Source: Brachionus manjavacas (taxonomy: Eukaryota; Rotifera; Eurotatoria; Ploima; Brachionidae). From it: 64,000 nucleotides of DNA. The notes below the pieces were generated by a model that saw only the letters and a list, made by a program, of their open reading frames with translations, did not search any database and had not been told where the DNA came from. Below, one piece after another: positions 22,986 through 58,339 of the stretch. Within the stretch, counting starts at the first letter, position 1. Each line of letters begins with the position of its first letter. The stretch is from assembly GCA_019054805.1 (NCBI GenBank), contig JAHQIY010000010.1, positions 1,471,501 to 1,535,500 of the forward strand. The letters run 5' to 3'. The position numbers and the translations under genes are program-made.

Positions 22986-23489
22986 GTCTTAACTTAACTA
23001 ATTTAGTTTAGTCGACTAAAAACAAGTTGACCAATTTTTAGCCAACTAAATTTTAGTCGACTTGTTTTTAGTTAACTAAATTTTAGTCGACCAATTTTTA
23101 GTTTAGTCGATTTAGTTACACTAAGAGAACAAAATAATGTGAAATAAACAGATGTTTTTGGGATGCATATCTCTGGATTAGTATTTTTTTAAGAAAAAAT
23201 TATTTAGACAATACATAGATAGCAGGAAATCATGGGGACGCGAGATATAAGGGGAATAGTGAGAAAAAATTAAAAATTTTAGAAAAAAATTATTTAACTT
23301 TTTTTTGGCATGTTGAAGTTTATGATCAAATGATCAAATGCTCAATTAAAAAGTAAGCATAATAAATTCTTAAATTAACGAAATGATTTTTTTTTATTGG
23401 TAATGAATTAACATATTAAATATAAGACAATAATAATTGTTTGAAATTAAAGTTGCATCAACTAATTTTTGCTATATAATTATTCCAAA

Positions 23490-24193
23490 ATGGTAAACGT
23501 TCAAAAAGCAACATATGATTCGTTTGTTGCTGAACAGAAAATGCTAGTTGAAGGGATGGTAAGGAGAATAGCTGATCTAGAAAGGAAGTACAATGAAGTC
23601 TTGAAAGAAAATCAAGAACTTTCAAACAAGTTAAACGCCTTAGAGAACAAAGAAAGGTCCAACAATTCTCAACCAGAATTATTTGCAGATCTTTTAAAAA
23701 AAAAAAAAAATAAGAAAATGTTGAAGCGAACATTTTGAACGCAATAAGATTAGAAAAGAAAGAAGAAGACAAGAAATCGAAGAATGTTTTGATTTTTGGT
23801 ACCGATTTTACTGAAGATGCTGAAGCTGATAAGGAAACAGTTGATAAAATCTCTGATGCTATTGGGTTTGACAAGTCGAAAATCAAATTTATTAAAAGAT
23901 TTAAACGTAAGAATGATAGTGTTAAAAGTACACCAATTCTTGTTGATTTGAACGATAAATCGAGCAAAATAAGCATGTTGAAAAATGCTAAAGAGCTAAG
24001 AAAAAGGAGTCACTTTTATAACATATATATCAACCCTGATCTTACCTTTGCAGAGCGTGAACTTAGCAAAAAACTGGTAACCGAGCGTAATGATAAAAAC
24101 AAGCAAAATGATAGTTCTAAGACTGGTTTCAGATACGGAATTAGAGACTTTGAAGTTGTCAGGATCAAAATTGGTCATGACAATTTAGATTGA
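23490..24193 (+). pseudogene. LINE ORF1, coiled-coil RNA-binding-like protein
   Basis: The start ATG is at 23490 (MVNVQKATYDSFV). About residues 20-60 form a coiled coil rich in heptads (LERKYNEVLKENQELSNKL). The frame shifts in a run of A residues at about 23694-23711 and continues in the next frame. That part, FGTDFTEDAEADKETVD onwards, looks like the RNA-recognition-type domain of LINE ORF1 proteins, ending at 24193. The A-run shift may be a decay mutation or slippage. Confidence 0.65.
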
Positions 24194-24249
24194 TATTTTC
24201 ATAAACGTTCATTTAACAGCAGTTGTCAGGTTAACAGTATTGAAACAAA

Positions 24250-27185
24250 TAGCAAATATTCTTCTCAAAGATCGAATCACAAAAATTTGGTTAAAAATAG
24301 AGTAACAACATTCTATAAAAACTTCATTAACTTCTGGTACACCAATGCTACTTCGCTGGATAACAAAATGCATATTCTAGAAGCCGAGCTCTCTGTAGAA
24401 GATCCGGACATTGTTTTGGTGTCTGAGACATGGTTCAAAGACACTTCGGTCACCAATATCAGTAAAACATTTTCTTTAGAAAAGACAGATGTTCGAGAGG
24501 TGGAGGAGTATGCGTTTATGTTAAAAAATCTATTAAATCAAATGAAGTTAATGTAGTCGAGCTTCAAGACAATTTCGTTGAATGGGTTTGGTGCGAGTTG
24601 CACAACCTGAATGATAGAATATTAGTTGGTTGTTTCTATAGACCACCGAACAGTTCAAATGAGACAAATACGAGATAGATATAAACCTGTTATTAAAAGA
24701 AGCAAGTAACCTAGTTTCGAATAAGCGTTTTAGTAGTTTGATTATATGTGGTGATTTTAATTATCCGGCAATTAAATGGTCTAACTTCGGTTTCTCAGAA
24801 ATAGCACCTTTCGATTTACCAAGTAAGGTCTTTATCGAAACTTTACAGGACTCATTTTTAAGCCAAATTGTCGAAAAAAACACTTTTCAGCTAAACGAAC
24901 ACGATTGCTCTAAAGTTTTGGATTTAGTTTTAACCTCGAATCGCGAACGGCTGCTGGAGTTAATTCATAAGCCGATTTTAGGAAACTCGACTAAGGGTCA
25001 TCATATTTTAACGTTCAAGTTTTCCACTATTTCAACAGTTGAGAATTTCGATAGTCGTCGTTTCAATTTTAACAAAGCGAACTTCAATTTTTTTTCAGAG
25101 AAAATATCAAAGATTGATTGGACTAATTTGTTTTTTGACAAAAACGTTAAGACTTGTTATGAGATATTTTTAAATATCTATATAAATTGTGTGAAAAAAA
25201 CATCCCATTTCGTCGGTCACCGAAAAAAAAGAATTTAACTTGGTTTTCGATGTCAACAAGAAAACTAATACGAGAAAAGAAAAATGCATGGTTTAAGTAT
25301 GTCGCCTCAAATAAAAGTGGTTTGCTCTTGTCAAGATTCAAAGCACTAAAAAAAGTAGTAAAAATTTCGTTAAACAAAGACCTTAAAGAATTTGAGCGCA
25401 GCTTAGTTAAAAATTCGAAATCGAATCCGAAAGCTTTTTACTCTTATGTAAATTCGAAATTGGCGGTAAAAGATCAAATTAAAGCTTTAAATGATAAAAA
25501 TGGAGATTTAATAACAGAACCAAAAGAAATTTGTAAAATTTTGAGCGAACAATTTGAGTCAGTTTTTATCAAGAATGAACCTGAGTTTGCAAATCAATTG
25601 GATAGACGTACAAATAAGATATTAAATCTTGATCCAGTCGTTATATTTTCACTAGAAAATTTGGTTAAAGAGCTAAAGCTACTTAACAAGTACAAGGCCT
25701 TAGGCTCAGACAAAGTACATCCTTGGGTGCTCAAAGAAACTTCAGTAGCTGTAGCTGTTCCTCTTTCTCTTATTTTCATAAAGTCATTTGAAACCTCTGA
25801 AGTACCAAAATATTGGCGACAGGCTAACATTACTCCCTTGTTCAAGAAAGGTTCAAGACTGCAGGCTTCAAATTACAGACCGGTATCTCTCACTTCCGTC
25901 GTATGTAAGATAATGGAGAGACTAATTAAACACGAGGTTATACGCTTTTTAACTGAAAACAAATTGATTAGTTTGAGTCAACATGGTTTTGTTAAAAGCA
26001 AATCTTGTGTTACTAATCTGTTGGAAACTATGGACATTGCAACAGAAGCTCTAAACTTAAAGGGTGCTTTGGACATAATTTATCTGAATTATGCCAAAGC
26101 CTTTGATAACATCCCACATCCCACATAAACGTTTAATTCATAAAATTGATAAGTATGGTTTTGGACAACTTATTAAAGGATGGATCAGTGCATTTTTAAA
26201 AGACAAAAAGAAAAGAGTTATCTTGAGTTAAGGTGAATTTGTTTCAGAATGGATAGATGTGCTTAGTGGTGTACCTCAAGGTTCAGTTCTTGGCCCAATT
26301 TTATTCATTCTTTATATTAACGACCTCCTTGATCTTATTGAGAACATGATCGAAATGTTTGCAGATGATACGAAGATAAGTGCAATGATTAATAATGTCG
26401 ACTGTTGTTTATCTCTTGAAAGTGATCTTCAGAGAATATCTAACTGGACTAATGATTGGTTGGTTGCTCTGAATGCTGAAAAATGTAAAGTAATGCATAT
26501 TGGAGACAAGAACCCGAATTATAGTTACGATATTAATAATACACCCTTATTAAAAACAACGTCAGAAAGAGATCTGGGTATAATTATTTCAAATGACTCG
26601 AAGTGGTCTGATCAAGTAAATGCTTGTGCCAACCGAGCAAATATGGTTTTGGGAATGGTTAAGAGAACATTCATATTTCAAAACATCGTATCTTTAAGTA
26701 GACTGTATAAGGCCTTTGTAAGACCACATTTAGAATATGGAGTTCAGGTCTGGAACCCACATCTGAAAAAAGACAATGCTGTGTTAGAATCAGTTCAGAG
26801 GAGAGCTACTAAGCTAGCTTTTGAAGTAAGAAGATTGGACTACAATGATAGAATCAAAGCCATGAATTTAACAACACTTGAAACAAGAAGACTCAGAGGC
26901 GATTTAATACAAATGTTTAAAATCGTTAAAGGTATTGATAAGGTTAACTGGTTAAAGCCCCTTTTATCTAAAAACGAAGGCAATGGTTTTCGTCTGGCAC
27001 CAAGAAGTCATGAATATGTAGTAGAGAGACAACTGGTTAAAAACTGCGACCAAAGATACAACTTTTTCACAAACAGAGTATCAACTGTTTGGAATAGGTT
27101 AACGAATGAAATTGTTAATTCAACTGCTGTCAATGAATTTAAAAACAAAATTGATTTAATAGACTTAAGCAAGCTATCACAGTGA
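24250..27185 (+). pseudogene. LINE ORF2, APE endonuclease and reverse transcriptase
   Basis: Endonuclease pieces: NATSLDNK, VLVSETWF, CFYRPPNSS and ICGDFNYPAIKW, with frameshifts near 24540 and a stop near 24680. The expected SDH near the domain end reads KGHH. RT pieces: NYRPVSLTSVVCKIMERL, LYNYAKAFD-like motif A (YLNYAKAFD, Asn where the catalytic Asp is expected), GVPQGSVLGPILFILYINDL and intact FADDTK. A 7-bp tandem repeat (CATCCCA) at about 26113-26126 shifts the frame and a TAA interrupts near 26230. The C-terminus ends at the stop 27183-27185. The enzyme is dead. Confidence 0.85.
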
Positions 27186-28069
27186 GGGTGAAACCTCATT
27201 TCATGTGGTTTATCCACATCATAGCTTTAATTATTATTATTATTATATTATGCTTCAGTCTCAAAAAAATTTTTTAAGTTGATCATAAAATAAATGGATT
27301 AATAATCGATTTTTTAGAATTAAAAAGAGTACCAAATCCGAAAGACAAAAAACATAACTTCGCAAAGATAACAAAATTAAAAAACCAAATGATATTTTAT
27401 TTTTAGAAAAATATTTATTTATTTGCATCATTAACTTTACTAAAAAATCAAAAATAATTGATCATTTTAGTTAATTTTGAGCATACTATTAATTTAAATT
27501 TTTTTTTTTTTTTTTGAAATTTTAATTTAACAAACTATGTTAATCAATGTTACATCAAGAATTTTATAAAATTCAACCTAAATCTTCAGGAAATTTATTA
27601 TTAAATATAAAATGAGCAATTTGATATAAAGTTTTGATCATAAACTTCAACATGCCCTTTTTTTTATTGAAAATTTAATATTAATGAAGAAAAAATACAT
27701 ACAATCAAATTACAAAAAAAAAACAATGCTAATTTCTTTAAAGTTTAAGTCTAAGTTATAAATATTATTTTGTAAAAATTTTCCCATAATAATTGATATT
27801 AAAAATTTAACCGTTTATTAAAAATTAATAATTAATATAACTTAACTAAAATTTAGTTAATTAAACTAAAGAGAAAACTCCATCACTAGTAATTTTTAGT
27901 AAAAAAAAGTAAATTTTAAACATTAGACAAAAACTCATTAAAAATGTACAATTATACACATTCCAGTATAATTCAATCATTCGACTTATCTCCATTTTTT
28001 TCTATAACTACTTCTTCAAAAAGTAATCCGATTCTTTAACGAAAGAAAAATGTCATAATTATATAAATC

Positions 28070-28860
28070 ATTTAAAAAAGATGCCGCATCATTTTTCAAT
28101 CTTTTTAAAGCCAAAATTAATTCATTTAAGCAAATTTGATCATTAAAATTACACTGGTTATAATTTCTAAAGAATTCAGAGTTAGAATTAAGTATTTCGA
28201 TATCTTTCTTAGTATCAATTAAATCAGAATTAGGACTAAATATTGAAGATAAGAGTTTCCCGAAGCATTTTCCCTTTTCTTCATTAGTTTTGAATTCCTT
28301 ATTATTTAAAATCAAATTTGGAATTAAATTTGTGCTTTTTTTGTTCTAAACTTTTAATTTTTTTCCAAAAGGTCAACTTGTCAGTTGGTTTTTTCCCATC
28401 TTCTCAATAAAATTAAACCAATTTTGATTTTTTGATAGAATTTTTTTTAAGAGGCTTTTAACTCAGATATAAGTTGATTATATTTTTGCTTGAGCTTTTG
28501 ACAGCGAGTTTTCTGGAAGTTTCTTCTTACTTTCCAACGTTCTTTAATTTTATCATTAAGTTGATCTTTAGTGAAGGAACTTTCAGTGATATTAACTGTT
28601 TGAGAATTTAAAATCTCGCTGAATAATTCCCAGTTTGCTCTATTATAGTTAAACTTTTTAGCTGTAGATTTATTTTCTAATAGAAATAGATGCTTCGATT
28701 GGGAAATGATCACTAGTCATGTCTTGACTATTTAATACATTGAAGTCAGTAATTTTGTCAATTAATGAAGAAGAAACTAAAAAAAGGTCGAGAATTTCAA
28801 AGTAATTTTTATTAAAAATATTGAAGGGTTAAACTTTAACTTTAATATTTGCTATTTTAA
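28070..28860 (-). pseudogene. LINE family B fragment (endonuclease end to RT start)
   Basis: Read on the minus strand from about 28860: ILDLFLVSSSLIDKITDF and NSQDMTSDHFP are the end of an APE endonuclease with its SDH. Then come STAKKFNYNRANWELFSEI, MILNNKEFKTNEEKGKCF, and LNELILALKRLKNDAAS, the start of an RT domain. It breaks near 28083. The same order occurs on the plus strand at 43352-44332, with close similarity, so these are copies of one family. Confidence 0.7.
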
Positions 28861-43351: not shown

Positions 43352-44625
43352 TCAGTAATCAATGATAAGCGCCCTACTTTCAATATTTTCAATAAGAATT
43401 ACTTTGAAATTCTTGATCTTTTTTTAGTTTCAACTTCATTAATTGACAAAATTACCGACTTCAATGTCTTAAATAGTCAAGACATGACTAGTGACCATTT
43501 CCCAACGAAGCATCAATTTCTATGGGCTATCAATTAAAAAATAAATCTACAGCTAAAAAACTTAACTTTAAGAAAGCAAACTGGCAATTCTTTAGCGAGA
43601 TTTTAAATTCTCAAATAGTTAATATCACTGAAAGTCCCCTCACTATTGATCAACAAATGATAAAATTACAGAAAAAATCATTTATGCATCACATAAAAGT
43701 ATTCCTTACCTTTCTCAGAAAATCTACAAATCCAGTCTTCCCCCGGACATTGTTAATTTAATTAAAGAACGTAGGAAAGTAAGAAGAAACTTCCAAAAAA
43801 TTCGCTGTAAAAAGCTTAATCAACTTACATTTGAATTAAAAGCCTCTTTAAAAAAATTCTCGAAACAAATTTGGTTTAATTTTAATCGAGAAGATGGGAA
43901 AAAACCCACTGACAAGTAGACCATTCTAGATCAAAAAAAGGATCAAATTTAATCCCAAATTTGATTTTAAATAATAAGGAATTCAAAACTAATGAAGAAA
44001 AGGGAAAATGCTTTGGAGAACTCTTATCTTCAATATTTAGTCCTAATTCTGATTTAATAGATCTTGATAAAGATTTCGAAATACTTAATTCTTACTCTGA
44101 ATTCTTTAGAAATTATAACCAGTGTAATTTTAATTATCAAATTTGCTTAAATGAATTAATTTTGGCTTTAAAAAGATTGAAAAATGATGCGGCATCAGAA
44201 CCTGACCAAATTCATAATTTAATGTTAAAAAATTTACCTAGAAATTCATTAATAGAAATCACAGAACTTTTAAACTTATATCTTCGAGAAAATAATATCA
44301 AAAACTACAAGCAATTCAGAATACAGCAGTAAGATCTATCCTTAAGTTAAAATATGATACTCCTTCCAACATGTTGCATCATGAGGCTTTTAATAAACTT
44401 AAATTACTAACAGTCTCAAATCGGCTTTGTGAGTTAAGTGAGAGATATGTTGGTCTGACAGTCTGACAGTCTATTCCATTGATTGTCAGACTGGTGGAGG
44501 AATACAAAGAAGATTTCGAATCAAGATTTATTGAATACCCAACTCCATTGTGTAATTACTACCTTACAATTTCTTCTTTTTTCCCTGAACAATCAATTTT
44601 TTAAAAATATTAATCTCAGGTTGAG
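43352..44625 (+). pseudogene. LINE family B copy with internal RT deletion
   Basis: Order: endonuclease end (ILDLFLVSTSLIDKITDF, NSQDMTSDHFP near 43480), linker (MILNNKEFKTNEEKGKCF, 43961), RT start (LILALKRLKNDAASEPDQI, LMLKNLPRNSLIEITELL). Then it jumps at about 44290 directly to the RT C-terminal region (LQAIQNTAVRSILKLKY, HHEAFNKL, CELSERYVG) and the family end IEYPTPLCNYYLTISSFFPE near 44580. The RT palm is missing and frameshifts occur, so this copy is inactive. Confidence 0.75.
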
Positions 44626-44778
44626 ATCTGGATTACTGTTTAACTAAAATGGAGATTTTAATTTCAATTCCAAAATAGTTATTAAATATCATATATTTTT
44701 TTCAATTGATTTTTAGCAATTAAAAATGTTAAGGAAATTGTAACAATAGAGTTTAATTATTTTTTTTATTAACATTGA

Positions 44779-45051
44779 CTAATTGACTAAAATACTTAAA
44801 CCACCCGGCATCCTTTGCACGCACATGATTAAAGACAAATTCTCAATCTTGTAATAGCTCAAGCATTTTTCATCTTCCATTTGTTTTCCAAATGCCAGTA
44901 AACGATAATTTTCCGCTTTTATTCTACAGTTTAAGTCAATTTTTTTTCTCAGATCTTTAACTGTCATTGATTTAAATACTGTTTCATTATCAGCTATATC
45001 AATAGTTGAACGGATGTTATTTTGAGAATAGATCTTTACTTGGTAGAGCAT
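44779..45051 (-). CDS. Ubiquitin-like protein with GG plus six residues
   Basis: An intact frame of 90 codons. The whole protein is one ubiquitin-like fold: a beta-grasp start (MLYQVKIYS), the helix segment TVKDLRKKIDLNCRI, then RLLAFGKQMEDEKCLSYYKI, which aligns with the ubiquitin strand holding Ile44 and Lys48 (here Leu and Lys56). It ends CVQRMPGG at 77-84 and then LSILVN. Against ubiquitin, Val70 and Arg72 are kept while Arg74 is Pro. A tail after GG would need removal before conjugation, as in ubiquitin, SUMO or ISG15 precursors; that is inference. It lies about 100-330 bp downstream of a USP gene on the same strand. Alternatively it may be a non-conjugated Ubl. Confidence 0.8.
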   Translation of the reverse strand: MLYQVKIYSQNNIRSTIDIADNETVFKSMTVKDLRKKIDLNCRIKAENYRLLAFGKQMEDEKCLSYYKIENLSLIMCVQRMPGGLSILVN

Positions 45052-45147
45052 TCTTTCTCAAATTGTTTTAATTAAAAATTTAATTTTTTTTGTTTTAGAG
45101 ATTTTGATGCCTCTTTAGATCAAAATAAACTTAGATTAGTTTTTTTG

Positions 45148-45359
45148 TTAAAAATAAATTAAATAAACAAATAAAAATATTTTTATCGTCAATTTTCCAA
45201 ATAAATTGCACAGCCTTTTCAGCGAAAGGCTAAATCGAGTTTTTTTTTTTCGTTTACAAAAATCATCTTCAAGCAAGTTTGATTCCTGGTACAAACAAGC
45301 TTTGTCATCGCTAGATGCACTAGATTTAGAAGTGTCACTTTTATCATCAAGGACATATA
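45148..45359 (-). CDS. Probable last exon of the USP gene, junction unresolved
   Basis: After an acceptor (TTTTTTTAG at 45360-45367) a frame of 69 codons starts YVLDDK, matching the usual C-terminal strand of USP domains. It continues with a serine/aspartate-rich linker, a basic KRKKKTR and a hydrophobic end (IKIFLFVYLIYF). No GT donor in the right phase lies in the preceding exon: GT after ATAAAT leaves phase 0, but this exon needs phase 1. A base error, a non-canonical site or natural loss could explain it. If joined, the protease would have a C-terminal membrane anchor. Confidence 0.5.
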
Positions 45360-45385
45360 CTAAAAAAAAGGCGTTTTGCTTAAAT

Positions 45386-48046
45386 TTATATATTTTTTAA
45401 GTCTTGGATAATTTTCAAATCATTTGAATTTACATTTATAATTGATCCGCTAATTTTGGAAACTTTTTCATCATCAAAAATGAACCATTGGTTAGACTTG
45501 TCATTTTTTGCACAAGTAGTATCTTTCTTTCTATTTAATAAAAATTTTCAAATAAAAAAAAAAGTACAGTGGCCATTGTAAAGACTTCCAAAATGGTTTG
45601 AAACTGCAACTAGTTCATACTTTGAATATTTTTTTCCATCATTGGCGTACTCATTCAAATCAATGCTAAAATAACGCAAAAAACATCAACTTTATTTTTA
45701 TTATTTGTGTTTTTTACTTTTCAAAGAATTCAATGAACTGGCTGTTTTTTTTCTTGTTAAAATAATCGTCACATTTGAACCGATTCAACTGAATGATGAA
45801 AATTTTCGGCAAGTTAAACAATTGAAATTGTTCTTCTGATTGAGTTTTTCTACAACAATTTCTACAATAACTATATATTTTTTTTTAAAGTTAAAAAAAT
45901 TAATATAATTCAAAAAATAAAAACTTTTCAGATGTATTGATGTGCATGATTTTAAAGTGTTCGGTGAAGCAATCATGCAAAGTAAGAAAAGACTCGGCGT
46001 ATTTTCTTTTCCTTGAGTTTTGTTTTTGCATCTCTGGTATAGGCAACACTAGGCCGTTTGATACATCAAATTTAACTGATACATGATTACATTCTAGACA
46101 ATGTATTTTTTCATAAGTAAATGAATGAAAAAGTTCAGCAATGAAGCTTTGGTGTGAATTTATGTAGCATTTCCATAAACATGATCCATGATTCTTTGGA
46201 AAAGTTTATTTGGTTAATCAAAGATGATATTTTGGTTACCAAAATTTCATTATTTAAATATTTGTAATCAGTGTATATCGCTTTTAAATCCAAAGTATCT
46301 TCAAATTTTTTGTTTTTTAATTCTTCATGTAAAATATTGAGCATATGTTCTAAAAATTCATGTGAATCATTCTGATCAAAATTTGCGTACATTCCTTCAT
46401 ATGAAATAACACACTCCTTTGATTTCGAATTAAGAAGACTATTAAATTTTAAATTTTTTTAGAAAAAAAAATATTCATTATTTCTTTATAAATGAATACC
46501 GAGTTTGAATATCTTATAATTTCATGAAATTTTTTAAACTTATAGAGTCTCATTATTCGGCATTGTGAATTTTGGAGCAAAAACAAAAATTTAAAAATTA
46601 TTGACTCAAAAATTTTTTTCTGAAAAATGAATCAGCCAAATTTAGTCTCTAAAATTCAATTTTAATGATTTTCTATAACATTTAGTGCTTTGCAGACTTA
46701 AAGAGTGTTTGCAGACACTAAATTTGAGTGATACAAAGTTTGTATCAGCTGATGCAATTTGAAGAACTTGATTTTTAGTCTAATATAAAAAAGTGATTTA
46801 AATTGAATTTTTTTTGTTCAAAAATTCACATTTTTAATTAGATCAATATTCAAACTGTAGTGTTATAACTTCAATTTTTAGTATTTTAAAATATTTAGCT
46901 GAGAAAATAATTATTAAGTAATAAAATGAAGGCTGAGAAATTCACATCAACTTTAATTTTTAAAAATTTAACTTTAAAAATATTCATTAATTTCTAATAA
47001 TAAAAATATCATCAGAAAATTTTTTTAAATTTGATCAATAGTAAATAAATATTCTGGAATAAAATGAGAATTAAAAAGGAGAATAAGAATTATACTTTTG
47101 GTAATACCGTTAAACAATATTGATATTTAAATCATAACAGGCACTAGAAAATTATTATTTTAGCGTCATGCCAAAGCCTTTAGAATAATTTGTAGATGAA
47201 ATAGGAAATTGAGAATAAAGTATGACTATTTAAACTAGGTAATCGAACAGTCATTTTTATCAAATGAAAATAAAAAACCAGGAGCATGACTGAAAATTTA
47301 TTTTATAAATAAAACGATTTAATTTGTTTTTTTTTTGCGGAAAAAAAAATATAAAACCTTTAAAGATTTCTAGGATTGCTGAATAATTAAATCCTAAACA
47401 TGGTCACCATCATGGTAAATCAGGTAGCTCGATTTAATATTTTGTTTGACTAAGCTAAATTTTTTAATTTAAATATTTTCCTTAATATTCCTAAATATTC
47501 TTAAACCATTTTTCTATTGAAAAAATAATTTTAAAAATTACATTTACTTTTTTACTGAGATCAAAAGTAAGTCTAATTTTTTTAAATATCAAATTATAAA
47601 TTTAAAAATTACTTAATAATTTTACAATATTTACCCTTAAAAGAGACGGTCTTATATTTGATGAATGCTTTGACCATAACTTTTTGAACAAATCACTCAA
47701 ATGTTTTGATAAGCTTTTTTCGTAATTAGCAAAATAGCTAAAATCGGCTGCAATAAAATGGTCTCTAAATTCAGGAATATTGCTTAAGCACTAGAAAAAA
47801 GTTAAAAATTTTTTCAAAAAAACCATTAAAAAAGATTCACTTGAAGTGCTGAATTCATAAAACACGTGTTTCCAAGATTAGTTAGACCAGTTGTGCCAGT
47901 AATTGTACTTTTTTCCAAATCCAATACACTCCGGTCAACATCACTTAATTCATTTTGTTTAGGCCAAATTTACTTTTTTTCTAATTAAGTTACAGTTTGC
48001 CAAGGATTGGATTATTTCTTTTTGCTCTTAAGCTTTTTCTCGTCAT
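45386..48046 (-). CDS. USP-type ubiquitin-specific protease
   Basis: Eight exons were rebuilt: 47994-48046, 47841-47943, 47635-47790, 46240-46416, 45925-46193, 45718-45870, 45568-45665 and 45386-45522, giving 381 residues. Introns are 45-54 nt except one of 1218 nt. It is a cysteine protease that would cut ubiquitin or a ubiquitin-like protein. The Cys box is GLTNLGNTCFMNSALQ (Cys45), the QQD-like box is FDQNDSHEFL, the zinc ribbon CLEC plus YCRNC, the strand LPKIFIIQLNRF, the His box LVAVSNHFGSLYNGHYT (His336) and WFIFDD (Asp353/354). All catalytic positions are kept. No ubiquitin-binding add-on domain is present. The usual closing YVL is not in this model; a following frame supplies it (see 45148-45359). 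It is divergently placed from the RBR gene. Confidence 0.85.
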
Positions 48047-48165
48047 TTCTAAAAAAATCAAATTCTAAATTCGCACCAATTTTATATTTACTGACTAGGG
48101 ATAAGTTCAATATATAAAAATAGATTTTTGAATTTATTTAAATTTATTTTTTGAAAAATTTAAAA
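48047..48165. promoter_or_regulatory. Shared upstream region of USP and RBR genes
   Basis: Only 119 bp separate the two divergent start codons (48046 minus, 48166 plus). Both promoters must lie here or overlap the genes. The sequence is AT-rich; no specific site is recognisable. Head-to-head spacing this short suggests co-expression. Confidence 0.5.
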
Positions 48166-48924
48166 ATGGCTGAAAAATTTTACAATCCAAATATTCACAA
48201 AAAATTGAATTTGTCTAAAAAAAGCGATGAAATAGCTTATTTAGACATTGGTGAATATAGAGCTCTCCTTTCATGTGGCCATGCTTGTGATCCAAATTCT
48301 CTTACTGGATGGTGTGAATCAATTCTAAATGATGGAAGGACAAACTTTACATGTCCAGTCAAAGACTGCAATAGAGAGTGGCCGTACGATGAAGTAAGAC
48401 GAGTTGCATTGTTGACTCAAGACGAAAGACTTGATTTTGAAACTAAATTGTACAACAACTTGGCCAATAGTGTTTGTATCAAGCCATGTCCTAAATGTGA
48501 AAAATTTATTCTAAGAAAAGATAGTAATGTTAACAAAATTCAATGTTTAAATTGTGGCAATAAGGGTCAAATTTTTCTATTTTGTTGGCAATGTGAACAG
48601 AAATGGTTGGACCTTAGTTCAAATGAAAAATGCGGCAATGATGCTTGCCATAGCTGTGAAGAAGAAGCTTTGAAAAATTGTGAATTCATTTATTTGGCTA
48701 ATTGTCCAAAATTGGGCAAAATTCCGAGTGTAAGAGCTTGTCCGACATGTGACAAACTTTTGGAACACGATGGACATGGTTGTAAGAACATAACTTGTAA
48801 CAAATGCCAAGTCGAGTTTTGTTTTGCATGTTTAGAAACAACAGAAGTATGTCAAAGGTTACAAAATGGATACTATGATAAATGTTCAAAGCCTATAGCT
48901 CCTATCCAGACCAGAAGATCTTAA
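48166..48924 (+). CDS. RBR-type (RING-IBR-RING2) E3 ligase-like protein
   Basis: Intact single-exon frame, 252 residues from ATG 48166. The first domain is a reduced RING1: CGHAC (37-41), SLTGWC and CPVKDCNREW (63-72). The middle is an IBR: CPKC (108-111), CLNC (127-130), FCWQC (139-143) and CHSC (161-164). The last is RING2: CPTC (192-195), GHGCKNITCNKC (203-214) and FCFAC (219-222). Cys206, in the position after Gly where RBR ligases such as parkin carry the thioester cysteine, is present. RBR enzymes take ubiquitin from an E2 onto this Cys and then onto a substrate. RING1 lacks some ligands of a standard C3HC4, so E2 binding is uncertain. It is much smaller than most RBRs and has no extra domain. 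It starts 119 bp from the USP start. Confidence 0.85.
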   Translation: MAEKFYNPNIHKKLNLSKKSDEIAYLDIGEYRALLSCGHACDPNSLTGWCESILNDGRTNFTCPVKDCNREWPYDEVRRVALLTQDERLDFETKLYNNLANSVCIKPCPKCEKFILRKDSNVNKIQCLNCGNKGQIFLFCWQCEQKWLDLSSNEKCGNDACHSCEEEALKNCEFIYLANCPKLGKIPSVRACPTCDKLLEHDGHGCKNITCNKCQVEFCFACLETTEVCQRLQNGYYDKCSKPIAPIQTRRS

Positions 48925-56043: not shown

Positions 56044-58339
56044 TTAGTACTTTTTCATTTTTTTATTAAAACCGGTATCTTGGGTCTCGTCATCTTCCTC
56101 AAACAAATCGCTATCATATTCATCTTCATCATCGCTGTCATTGTCAAACGACCTGTCTAAATCGCGCGGACTCGACTCCTCTGTGTCATAGGACCTAACC
56201 TCGCTTGTCTGCACCTCGCGCGTATTCAGCTGCTCTTTCAAATTATTTATTGTCACCATGGTCGGATCGCTGTCGTTAAACGAACTGCCGATCGCGTCCT
56301 GGTACAGCTTGTTAAACTTGGCAGTCGCTTCCCTTATCTAGAAAAAAAAAATTGAAAAATTGAATTTTTTGGCCCATAAGACAAAATCTGCGTCACCTCT
56401 TTCTGCAAGCTTGAAGTCTCTGCGCACAAAACAGACTTTTTTTGCTCAAGTTTGGCAACGCTCTCCTTCAGCGTGTCGATTGAGTCCAGCTTGCGCTTGC
56501 GGCATATCTGTGCCGCCACTTTATTCTTGCCTCTGCGCCGAATGTCCTTGGCTATGATCACCTGATCGTTGTTCAGCGACTTGTCGCGAATCAAATCGTT
56601 GAACTCGTCTGCACTAGTCTCCACTATTTGGCTCAGACTCAGCGGAATGCTGTTCTCTCTCAGCAGCTGTTGGTCACGTGACGCATTCTTCTCGTTCCGC
56701 TCTCCATCCGACCTGCTCGAGTTTTTGAGCATTTTCTTGAGCTTGTTCTTGTACGAATAGGGATGGTTGATCAGCGAGTCCTCTTCCGAGTTGCTTGTGG
56801 ACAAATAGGTGTGGTTGTGATTGAGTCCGTTCAATGCCGACGATTGTACACTGGACAGGCTGTTTGACGAGTTGGCATTGTGTCTCAATGTTGCATCAAC
56901 TTTGTTCAACTCCACTTCTCTTTCAATTGCTTCTTTCTTGACAAAAAAAAGAAAATTTTATTTACCCAAAATGACTAAGCAGTATTTGTTGGCCAAAAAA
57001 AACAAAGGTAAATGAACTAAATTTTTTTTTTTTTTTGTTGAGTCATCATTTAAATTGCATAATTAATAAAGAACGAAAAGAAAAATTTTATTCATTTTTT
57101 TTCTCTACTAACTTTTAATTCTGTATCATTAAGTAAAACATTTGGTATTTTTTTTGCTTTGTCATGATCATCATTGGTGTTGTGGGAAGCGGCCGACACG
57201 TCCAGAGATTTAAAAGTGGCATTTACGTGGTTGAGGCGTTGATTGCTGTCCATGAAGGCGATGAGCGCGGACATGTTCATGTCCTTGGACCTGGGCTCAG
57301 TGTCGTTTTTGTCCTTGTCGTGCAGCATTATGGCCTGGTCGAGCATGCTCTCGAACTGGGCCGTGTCGTTGTACAGCGTCTCGTTGGCCAAGTAGTTGTT
57401 CTCGACGAGCAGGGGACTGAACACAAACGTTTGGTTGTCGTTAAGCTTGGACAGCATCTTGTCGTCGTTTATTTTTATCTGATCATAAACAGACTCGGTG
57501 TTGTCGTCAGCCTCCACAAGCAGTTGATTGATCCAGTTCTCGTCGAGCAGGTTGTCCGAGTCCAGATTGGTGAGCGTGTCGTCCAAATTGGTCGAGTTTA
57601 TGCTCAGGTTTTCGTTGAGCTTTTCCAGCTCTTGGTTGATGGACAACTGGCTCAGGAACTCGGGCGTGGCGTTGTTGGTGGTGTTGACGCGCAGATTTGA
57701 GGCAAACGCCGAGTGGTGCGGACGAGCGAGTACCTGCTCAGTCTTGTTCGAGTCATTGGGCATCAGCATGATGAAGTACTCGCCAGTGTCCTCTTCGACA
57801 ATGAGCTTGCAGCCTTCCGGGATGCGGTTCTGCTCGAACAGGTCCGTAGTGGCCATTATGTCCGCGTTTTTCTGCGACTCCTTGTAGAACTCGATCTGCT
57901 TTGAGCTGTTGTGGTGGTGGTGGTGGTGATGGTGGCTGGTGCTGGACGGCATGATGCCCAAGTCAATGTCCTGCTGGAGAATGGTCTGTAGGTCCATGTC
58001 CATTTCAATGTCCTAAAATAATTTCCTAAAAAATAGTCTAAATTAAAATAAAGCTTGTTTTAAGTATGGCACCTCTTTGCTGAAAGAGTTGTCGTGCAGC
58101 AGAGTGAGCAGATCCTTCTGGGACGGATTCTGCACAAGCAGGGAGGCCGGTGCGATTAAATAGCTCAGCCGATTGAACAAGACTATTTCGTCCAAGTACG
58201 ATTTGGAGCGGTTGGCCAGAGTGTGCTTTGCTATGTGGTTGTGACTGCTAAATGGATCAATGGTTGTTTGGCGCAAAATGCTTGCCAACAAAGTTAGCCC
58301 GAGTACAGTCTCGAAAAAGTGCTTTTTTGGATTTCTCAT
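56044..58339 (-). CDS. CNC-bZIP transcription factor, NFE2L (Nrf) type
   Basis: Four exons rebuilt: 58073-58339, 57113-58012, 56397-56936 and 56044-56337; introns 60, 176 and 59 nt; 666 residues. It is the stress-response activator family that binds antioxidant-response elements with small Maf partners. Exon 1 has a hydrophobic segment (FFETVLGLTLLASILRQ, about 8-24), as in the ER-anchored NFE2L1 branch. Then come QQDIDLG (102-108), eight His (116-123) and EEDTGEYF (162-169). These two match the DLG and ETGE KEAP1-binding motifs of NRF2. The CNC domain is about 475-519 (IPLSLSQIVETSADEFNDLI) and the basic region DIRRRGKNKVAAQICRKRKL at 520-539, followed by a leucine zipper. The C-terminus is very acidic (DSDDEDEYDSDLFEEDDE). 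AG stands directly before the ATG, so a 5' UTR exon is likely upstream. Confidence 0.93.

Follow-up and report, generated by a model that had tools for sequence, protein, structure and literature searches.

A compact cluster of ubiquitin-like, USP and RBR-type genes in the rotifer Brachionus manjavacas, plausibly a single modification module

A window of 64,000 nucleotides from the genome of the rotifer Brachionus manjavacas (GenBank assembly GCA_019054805.1, contig JAHQIY010000010.1, here C10, C10:1471501-1535500) was analyzed for a trio of ubiquitin-system genes. Positions refer to this window unless another contig is named. The trio spans 44779-48924, which corresponds to 4146 bp (~4.1 kb), and consists of a gene for a ubiquitin-like protein (Ubl) on the minus strand, a gene for a USP-type protease on the same strand and a gene for an RBR-type protein on the plus strand. 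All three were found where an initial annotation, made from the sequence alone, had placed them, and all three matched their family profiles, the Ubl and the RBR-type protein above the cut-offs. For comparison the whole genome of 114,169,980 bases in 61 contigs was searched. The anatomy of the trio, meaning its frames, domains and gaps, is solid. We infer that the three genes serve one pathway; the trio is real and plausibly a single module.

The Ubl gene (44779-45051, minus strand) has one exon and encodes 90 amino acids. Its product belongs to the ubiquitin family by its match to PF00240 (E 2.9e-9, 37 bits, cut-off 25.4), while two other domain models matched below their respective cut-offs. 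The internal GG noticed in the initial annotation is part of a PGG at residues 82-84, which is followed by the six residues LSILVN. The C-terminal GG of a type I modifier is thus present in a form that cleavage could expose. Compared to the polyubiquitin of the same genome the Ubl showed 37% identity over residues 25-89; the part ahead of residue 25 is longer than that of ubiquitin and did not align. Ile44 of ubiquitin is changed to Leu, Lys48 is kept, Arg72 is found as Arg80 and the terminal GG as Gly83-Gly84. An AF2 model of the Ubl, computed without alignment input, reached a pLDDT of 76. Apart from the Ubl itself, a search of the genome with the protein returned only nine weak matches to ubiquitin-like sequences, of which six fall within one polyubiquitin frame.

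The USP gene (45148-48046, minus strand) was modelled with nine exons (48046-47994, 47943-47841, 47790-47635, 46416-46240, 46193-45925, 45870-45718, 45665-45568, 45522-45434 and 45378-45148) encoding 442 amino acids. This model is predicted splicing from genomic sequence, with further introns enumerated computationally. Apart from a single intron of 1218 bp, the introns are short (seven, 45-55 bp), and all are of the GT-AG type. The initial splice model yielded 381 amino acids and covered only positions 1-241 of the 254 of the UCH profile PF00443 (200.9 bits). An extra GT-AG intron of 55 bp (45433-45379) opens the adjacent frame as last exon and leads to the 442-residue protein, which covers the complete profile (1-254/254) with 205.1 bits; each improvement of the joins had raised the score, which had started at 182.7 bits. 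The frame reads through without skipping any stop or frameshift. A broken gene was ruled out, because GT-AG introns of 46 bp and 1218 bp account for both the apparent frameshift near 46195 and the seemingly faulty donor near 47635. The predicted catalytic residues, namely Cys45, His336 and Asp353/354 in the alignment with USP4, are in place as the initial annotation had claimed, now on the corrected model. Using the 381-residue model, the closest solved structures were USP4 (E 8.7e-50), then USP15, USP11 and USP2, with USP18 far weaker (E 1.6e-14). The search of the genome with the USP draft returned six pieces of the gene itself and 22 other matches with 20-49% identity over parts of the protein. 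At its end (45148-45265, minus strand), the last exon encodes a run of basic residues and a short hydrophobic segment (KRKKKTRFSLSLKRLCNLFGKLTIKIFLFVYLIYF), which may be a membrane tail. The long intron (46417-47634, minus strand) carries a dispersed repeat at about intron positions 133-420 with many genomic matches; several genomic copies match in both orientations side by side, resembling a foldback element.

The RBR-type gene (48166-48924, plus strand) is intronless and encodes 252 amino acids with a candidate active Cys206. Both IBR models matched above cut-off in two stretches each (PF22191, E 4e-8; PF01485, E 7e-7), which covers the IBR and RING2 parts, and no further Pfam domain was detected in the protein. 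Among solved structures only parkin-type fragments matched, and weakly (E 0.006-0.0075). For an alignment we used 10 of the 12 other loci found in the genome by the two IBR models (13 loci in total). The proposed catalytic Cys206 held up in this comparison, as it aligned with the presumed active-site Cys in 10 of 10 loci, at an overall identity to them of 20-26%. No relative other than the protein itself was found in the 114-Mb genome by protein search at E<=1e-3, and a search restricted to the aligned set gave ~20 bits with three other RBRs. By these sequence comparisons the protein is a remote member of the RBR family. As a separate observation, IBR_1 has three short, equally scoring matches at C8:381692, 385743 and 398417, within a 17-kb stretch next to a full RBR gene; they look like stubs or pseudogenes.

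Comparing the positions of the three genes, a very compact arrangement became visible. The start codons of the USP and the RBR-type gene lie head to head with 119 bp between them (48047-48165), so that the distance given in the initial annotation was reproduced by the spliced model. This interval is a possible two-way promoter. The Ubl indeed follows the USP on its strand, with a corrected distance of 96 bp from the USP stop to the Ubl start (45052-45147). On the minus strand an AATAAA was found at 44770 just past the Ubl stop and none between the USP stop and the Ubl start; in such AT-rich DNA this is weak evidence. Rotifers are named among the animals having trans-splicing and operons (PMC12460157). 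A USP-Ubl fusion was rejected, as by-eye and not exhaustive inspection revealed no splice that would join the last USP exon in frame to the start codon of the Ubl.

After merging, the genome contained at least 57 USP, 30 Ubl and 13 RBR loci; these loci counts, like those of the search tools, are lower bounds. With uniform placement ~9e-5 triples of the three families would be expected within 4146 bp, a figure obtained post hoc and for genes which in reality are not uniformly placed. The USP count includes copies adjoining a mobile element, so the estimate errs on the conservative side. None of the other RBR loci listed lies within 50 kb of any USP or Ubl locus, so that the trio holds the sole RBR-USP and RBR-Ubl neighbours. 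Two further Ubl-USP pairs were found in the genome, one inside a single 514-residue frame and one with 4.5 kb between its members. Protein searches revealed no close relatives of the Ubl, the USP or the RBR-type protein elsewhere in the genome. Apart from the trio, a Helitron frame (Helitron_like_N, E 1e-26; DUF6570, E 6e-18) was observed to adjoin a USP-like frame of 274 residues (PF00443, E 5e-10) and a 396-residue frame without Pfam match (C52:36000-44000 and C4:1-9000). Of ten listed copies with a 274-residue frame, contig C52 (120 kb) carries five, the first 21 kb of C4 another three, and C28 and C16 one each.

The reading we favour is that the trio constitutes one small ubiquitin-like modification module, in which the RBR-type protein attaches the Ubl and the USP is responsible for its maturation and removal; we hold it tentatively, at a probability somewhat short of even. 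It is favoured by the intact domains (RING1 excepted), the gaps of 96 and 119 bp, the conserved catalytic positions and the lack of close genomic relatives. The Ubl would be made as a precursor, and the USP would cut after the PGG and thereby expose the diglycine. In ubiquitin, Arg72 matters for the choice of the E1, as an Arg at this position favours the ubiquitin-type E1 and disfavours the NEDD8 E1. Since Arg80 of the Ubl aligns with it, one of the ubiquitin-type E1 enzymes of the genome would probably charge the mature Ubl, followed by a shared E2. A total of 18 ThiF (E1-type) matches, 15 of them above cut-off, and 33 E2-profile matches were found in the genome, with the E1_UFD domain of ubiquitin-type E1s at two places on contig C6. 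The RBR-type protein would accept the Ubl on Cys206 as a thioester and hand it to substrates, from which the USP would later strip it. Both the USP and the RBR-type gene would be driven from the 119-bp interval, with the Ubl carried on the USP transcript or regulated in common with the USP.

A number of observations weigh against this reading. No match to the ThiF, E1_UFD or E2 profiles was found on contig C10, so that the cluster, if a pathway, would borrow its E1 and E2. In the Ubl, Pro82 stands at the position of ubiquitin Arg74, and a Foldseek search of PDB and BFVD with the AF2 model returned nothing at E<=0.001. The USP is most like the general proteases USP4, USP15, USP11 and USP2 and not like the ISG15 protease USP18. 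The RING1 of the RBR-type protein is without its first CxxC and has no recognisable third pair, and thus lacks one of the two zinc sites; C37, H39, C63 and C68 are left, with C41 and C50 at other spacings. RING1 was covered in seven of the ten compared loci, each of which carries the first CxxC and a third pair of the form C-x2-C. As a two-zinc RING1 is missing at the sequence level, we use the name RBR-type and do not speak of a canonical RBR. The His expected of an RBR E3 at the second position after the active Cys is replaced by Asn, while His is found in 7 of the 10 other loci and Lys, Tyr and Gln in the rest. Because of the lost zinc site and this Asn, ligase activity of the protein is uncertain. 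Its fold model was unusable (pLDDT 34). Codon scores were low for all three genes (RBR-type 0.10, Ubl -0.01, USP in the 381-residue model -0.05), compared to a mean of 0.235 (sd 0.178) for 24 training frames and -0.111 (sd 0.224) for 130 short frames of the window. Since these scores are weak, the coding status of the trio rests on domain integrity and not on codon usage. The dedicated conjugation pathway suggested in the initial annotation is therefore supported in part: the compact gaps, the lack of close relatives and a free-standing Ubl with a short tail after its GG speak for it, whereas the degenerate RING1 and a USP unlike USP18 do not.

Other explanations were weighed on the same data. 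The three genes may be independent neighbours, unrelated members of the ubiquitin system, with the USP and the RBR-type protein acting on ordinary ubiquitin and the Ubl in a separate role. The closeness of the USP to general ubiquitin proteases fits this explanation, compact spacing is possible without common function, and the closeness test was post hoc; but the very small number of triples expected by chance, two gaps of about 100 bp each and three members all without close relatives in the genome weigh against it, and we give it a modest chance. Alternatively, the Ubl may be a non-covalent regulator of the RBR-type protein, or of the USP, acting through the RING1-IBR allosteric site and activating a ligase for ordinary ubiquitin. 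Allosteric activation by ubiquitin or Ubls is common among RBRs, and the RING1 E2-binding site and the allosteric Ub/UBL site are among their defining features (PMC9834252). The Pro and Met immediately ahead of the GG also depart from the usual tail. On the other hand, the retained GG and the removable tail, next to a protease, are what would be required of a conjugated modifier, and we consider such a regulator improbable. Finally, the RBR-type protein could be a pseudo-ligase that, with its reduced RING1, has lost the ability to recruit an E2 and acts as a binding partner or inhibitor, while the USP and the Ubl work elsewhere. The missing first CxxC, the unrecognisable third pair and the Asn in place of His point in this direction. 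However, C206 and the metal positions of IBR and RING2 are retained, and the His is also missing in 3 of the 10 other RBR loci. In RBR ligases the Cys is essential, and the remaining triad residues are incompletely conserved (PMC9834252). A pseudo-ligase appears quite unlikely to us, more so than the non-covalent regulator. A chance grouping of expanded families, the alternative offered in the initial annotation, was rejected as stated, since protein searches found none of the three families expanded in the genome.

With the modification module as the preferred reading, the trio was compared to known systems. The ISG15 system (ISG15, USP18, HERC5/ARIH1) likewise combines a Ubl modifier, a USP-family protease and an E3. 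ISG15 consists of two Ubl domains, in contrast to the single one of the trio Ubl. Further differences are the USP, which is nearer to USP4/15 than to USP18, an RBR-type protein in place of HERC, and three genes within 4.1 kb for which no dedicated E1 or E2 was identified. USP4 and USP15 are characterized by a DUSP-UBL part and a long insert. The trio USP retains the catalytic boxes and the two CxxC pairs of the USP4/USP15/USP11 core, but it consists of the UCH domain only, without those additional parts, and ends in the basic and hydrophobic tail. Canonical RBR ligases of the Parkin, Ariadne and RNF144 types share IBR, RING2 and the place of the active-site Cys with the trio protein, which differs by its single-zinc-site RING1, the Asn at the second position after the Cys and the lack of any additional Pfam domain. 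In its single zinc site this RING1 would resemble the SP-RINGs of the SUMO type. The RBR protein ARIH1 is listed among the ISG15 E3 ligases, and a previously undescribed clade named ARIT, with the RBR domain alone, comprises fish, reptile and some mammal sequences; two salmon ARIT genes were strongly induced by interferon gamma (PMC12234341; 2025). Like ARIT, the trio protein is a short RBR-only protein outside the named RBR groups, while a typical RBR domain structure is described for ARIT and the trio RING1 is reduced, a comparison made by description. Fish proteins annotated ARI5-like, some of them fused to a Ubl, may have motifs similar to those of the trio protein, and a relation to ARIT is a possible lead. 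Prokaryotic Bil and Caldiarchaeum clusters also encode modifier and protease together, in Caldiarchaeum with a RING ligase, but they include E1 and E2, and the Bil protease is a JAB (PMC11354881). In contrast to such clusters, the trio belongs to an animal genome, contains introns and is made up of members of eukaryotic families. In a full-text literature search, judged from titles and abstract openings, no report of an animal Ubl-USP-RBR cluster was found, which is the sole basis for calling it unreported. Scans of two contig sets made up of viruses and prokaryotes, which required near-exact motifs and have little bearing on animals, gave no confirmed match: in the viral set, 4 and 7 stretches were hit by the two protein scans and none by the three motif scans; in the genome set, one protein scan hit 8 stretches and one motif scan none.

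The trio is surrounded by animal-like genes, namely a mitochondrial carrier, a glycosyltransferase of family 8, an MFS transporter and a Maf-type bZIP factor, with pieces of long interspersed elements (LINEs) among them. The GC content of the cluster (26.4%) is close to that of the window (26.7%), and the rotifer genomes assembled in PMC11954553 range from 24.95 to 31.14%. Searching the window with Rfam gave 0 matches. The exon of the Maf/bZIP transcription factor (56337-56957, minus strand; PF03131, E 4e-15) lies 7.4 kb from the RBR-type gene; we take the factor to be CNC/Nrf2-like. One LINE with long open frames and a reverse transcriptase (PF00078) occupies 23466-27182 on the plus strand, and LINE-like fragments at 28019-28716 (minus strand) and 43495-44329 (plus strand) have peptides in common, as seen by eye.

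It is rare to find a new ubiquitin-like modifier, and since the enzymes that act with such modifiers usually lie scattered in animal genomes, these partners are hard to guess. Here, a modifier, a protease and a ligase, all without close genomic relatives, are found within 4.1 kb, so that the candidate partners are named directly and the pathway becomes testable with three recombinant proteins. The trio could even represent a new self-contained animal Ubl pathway with a single-domain PGG-tail modifier, its own USP and an RBR-type ligase with a one-zinc-site RING1, perhaps an ancient one whose ligase survives as vertebrate ARIT, a view we regard as doubtful. Should the RBR-type protein prove to be kin to the interferon-induced fish ARIT genes, a search for a modifier that matches this orphan vertebrate ligase would also suggest itself.

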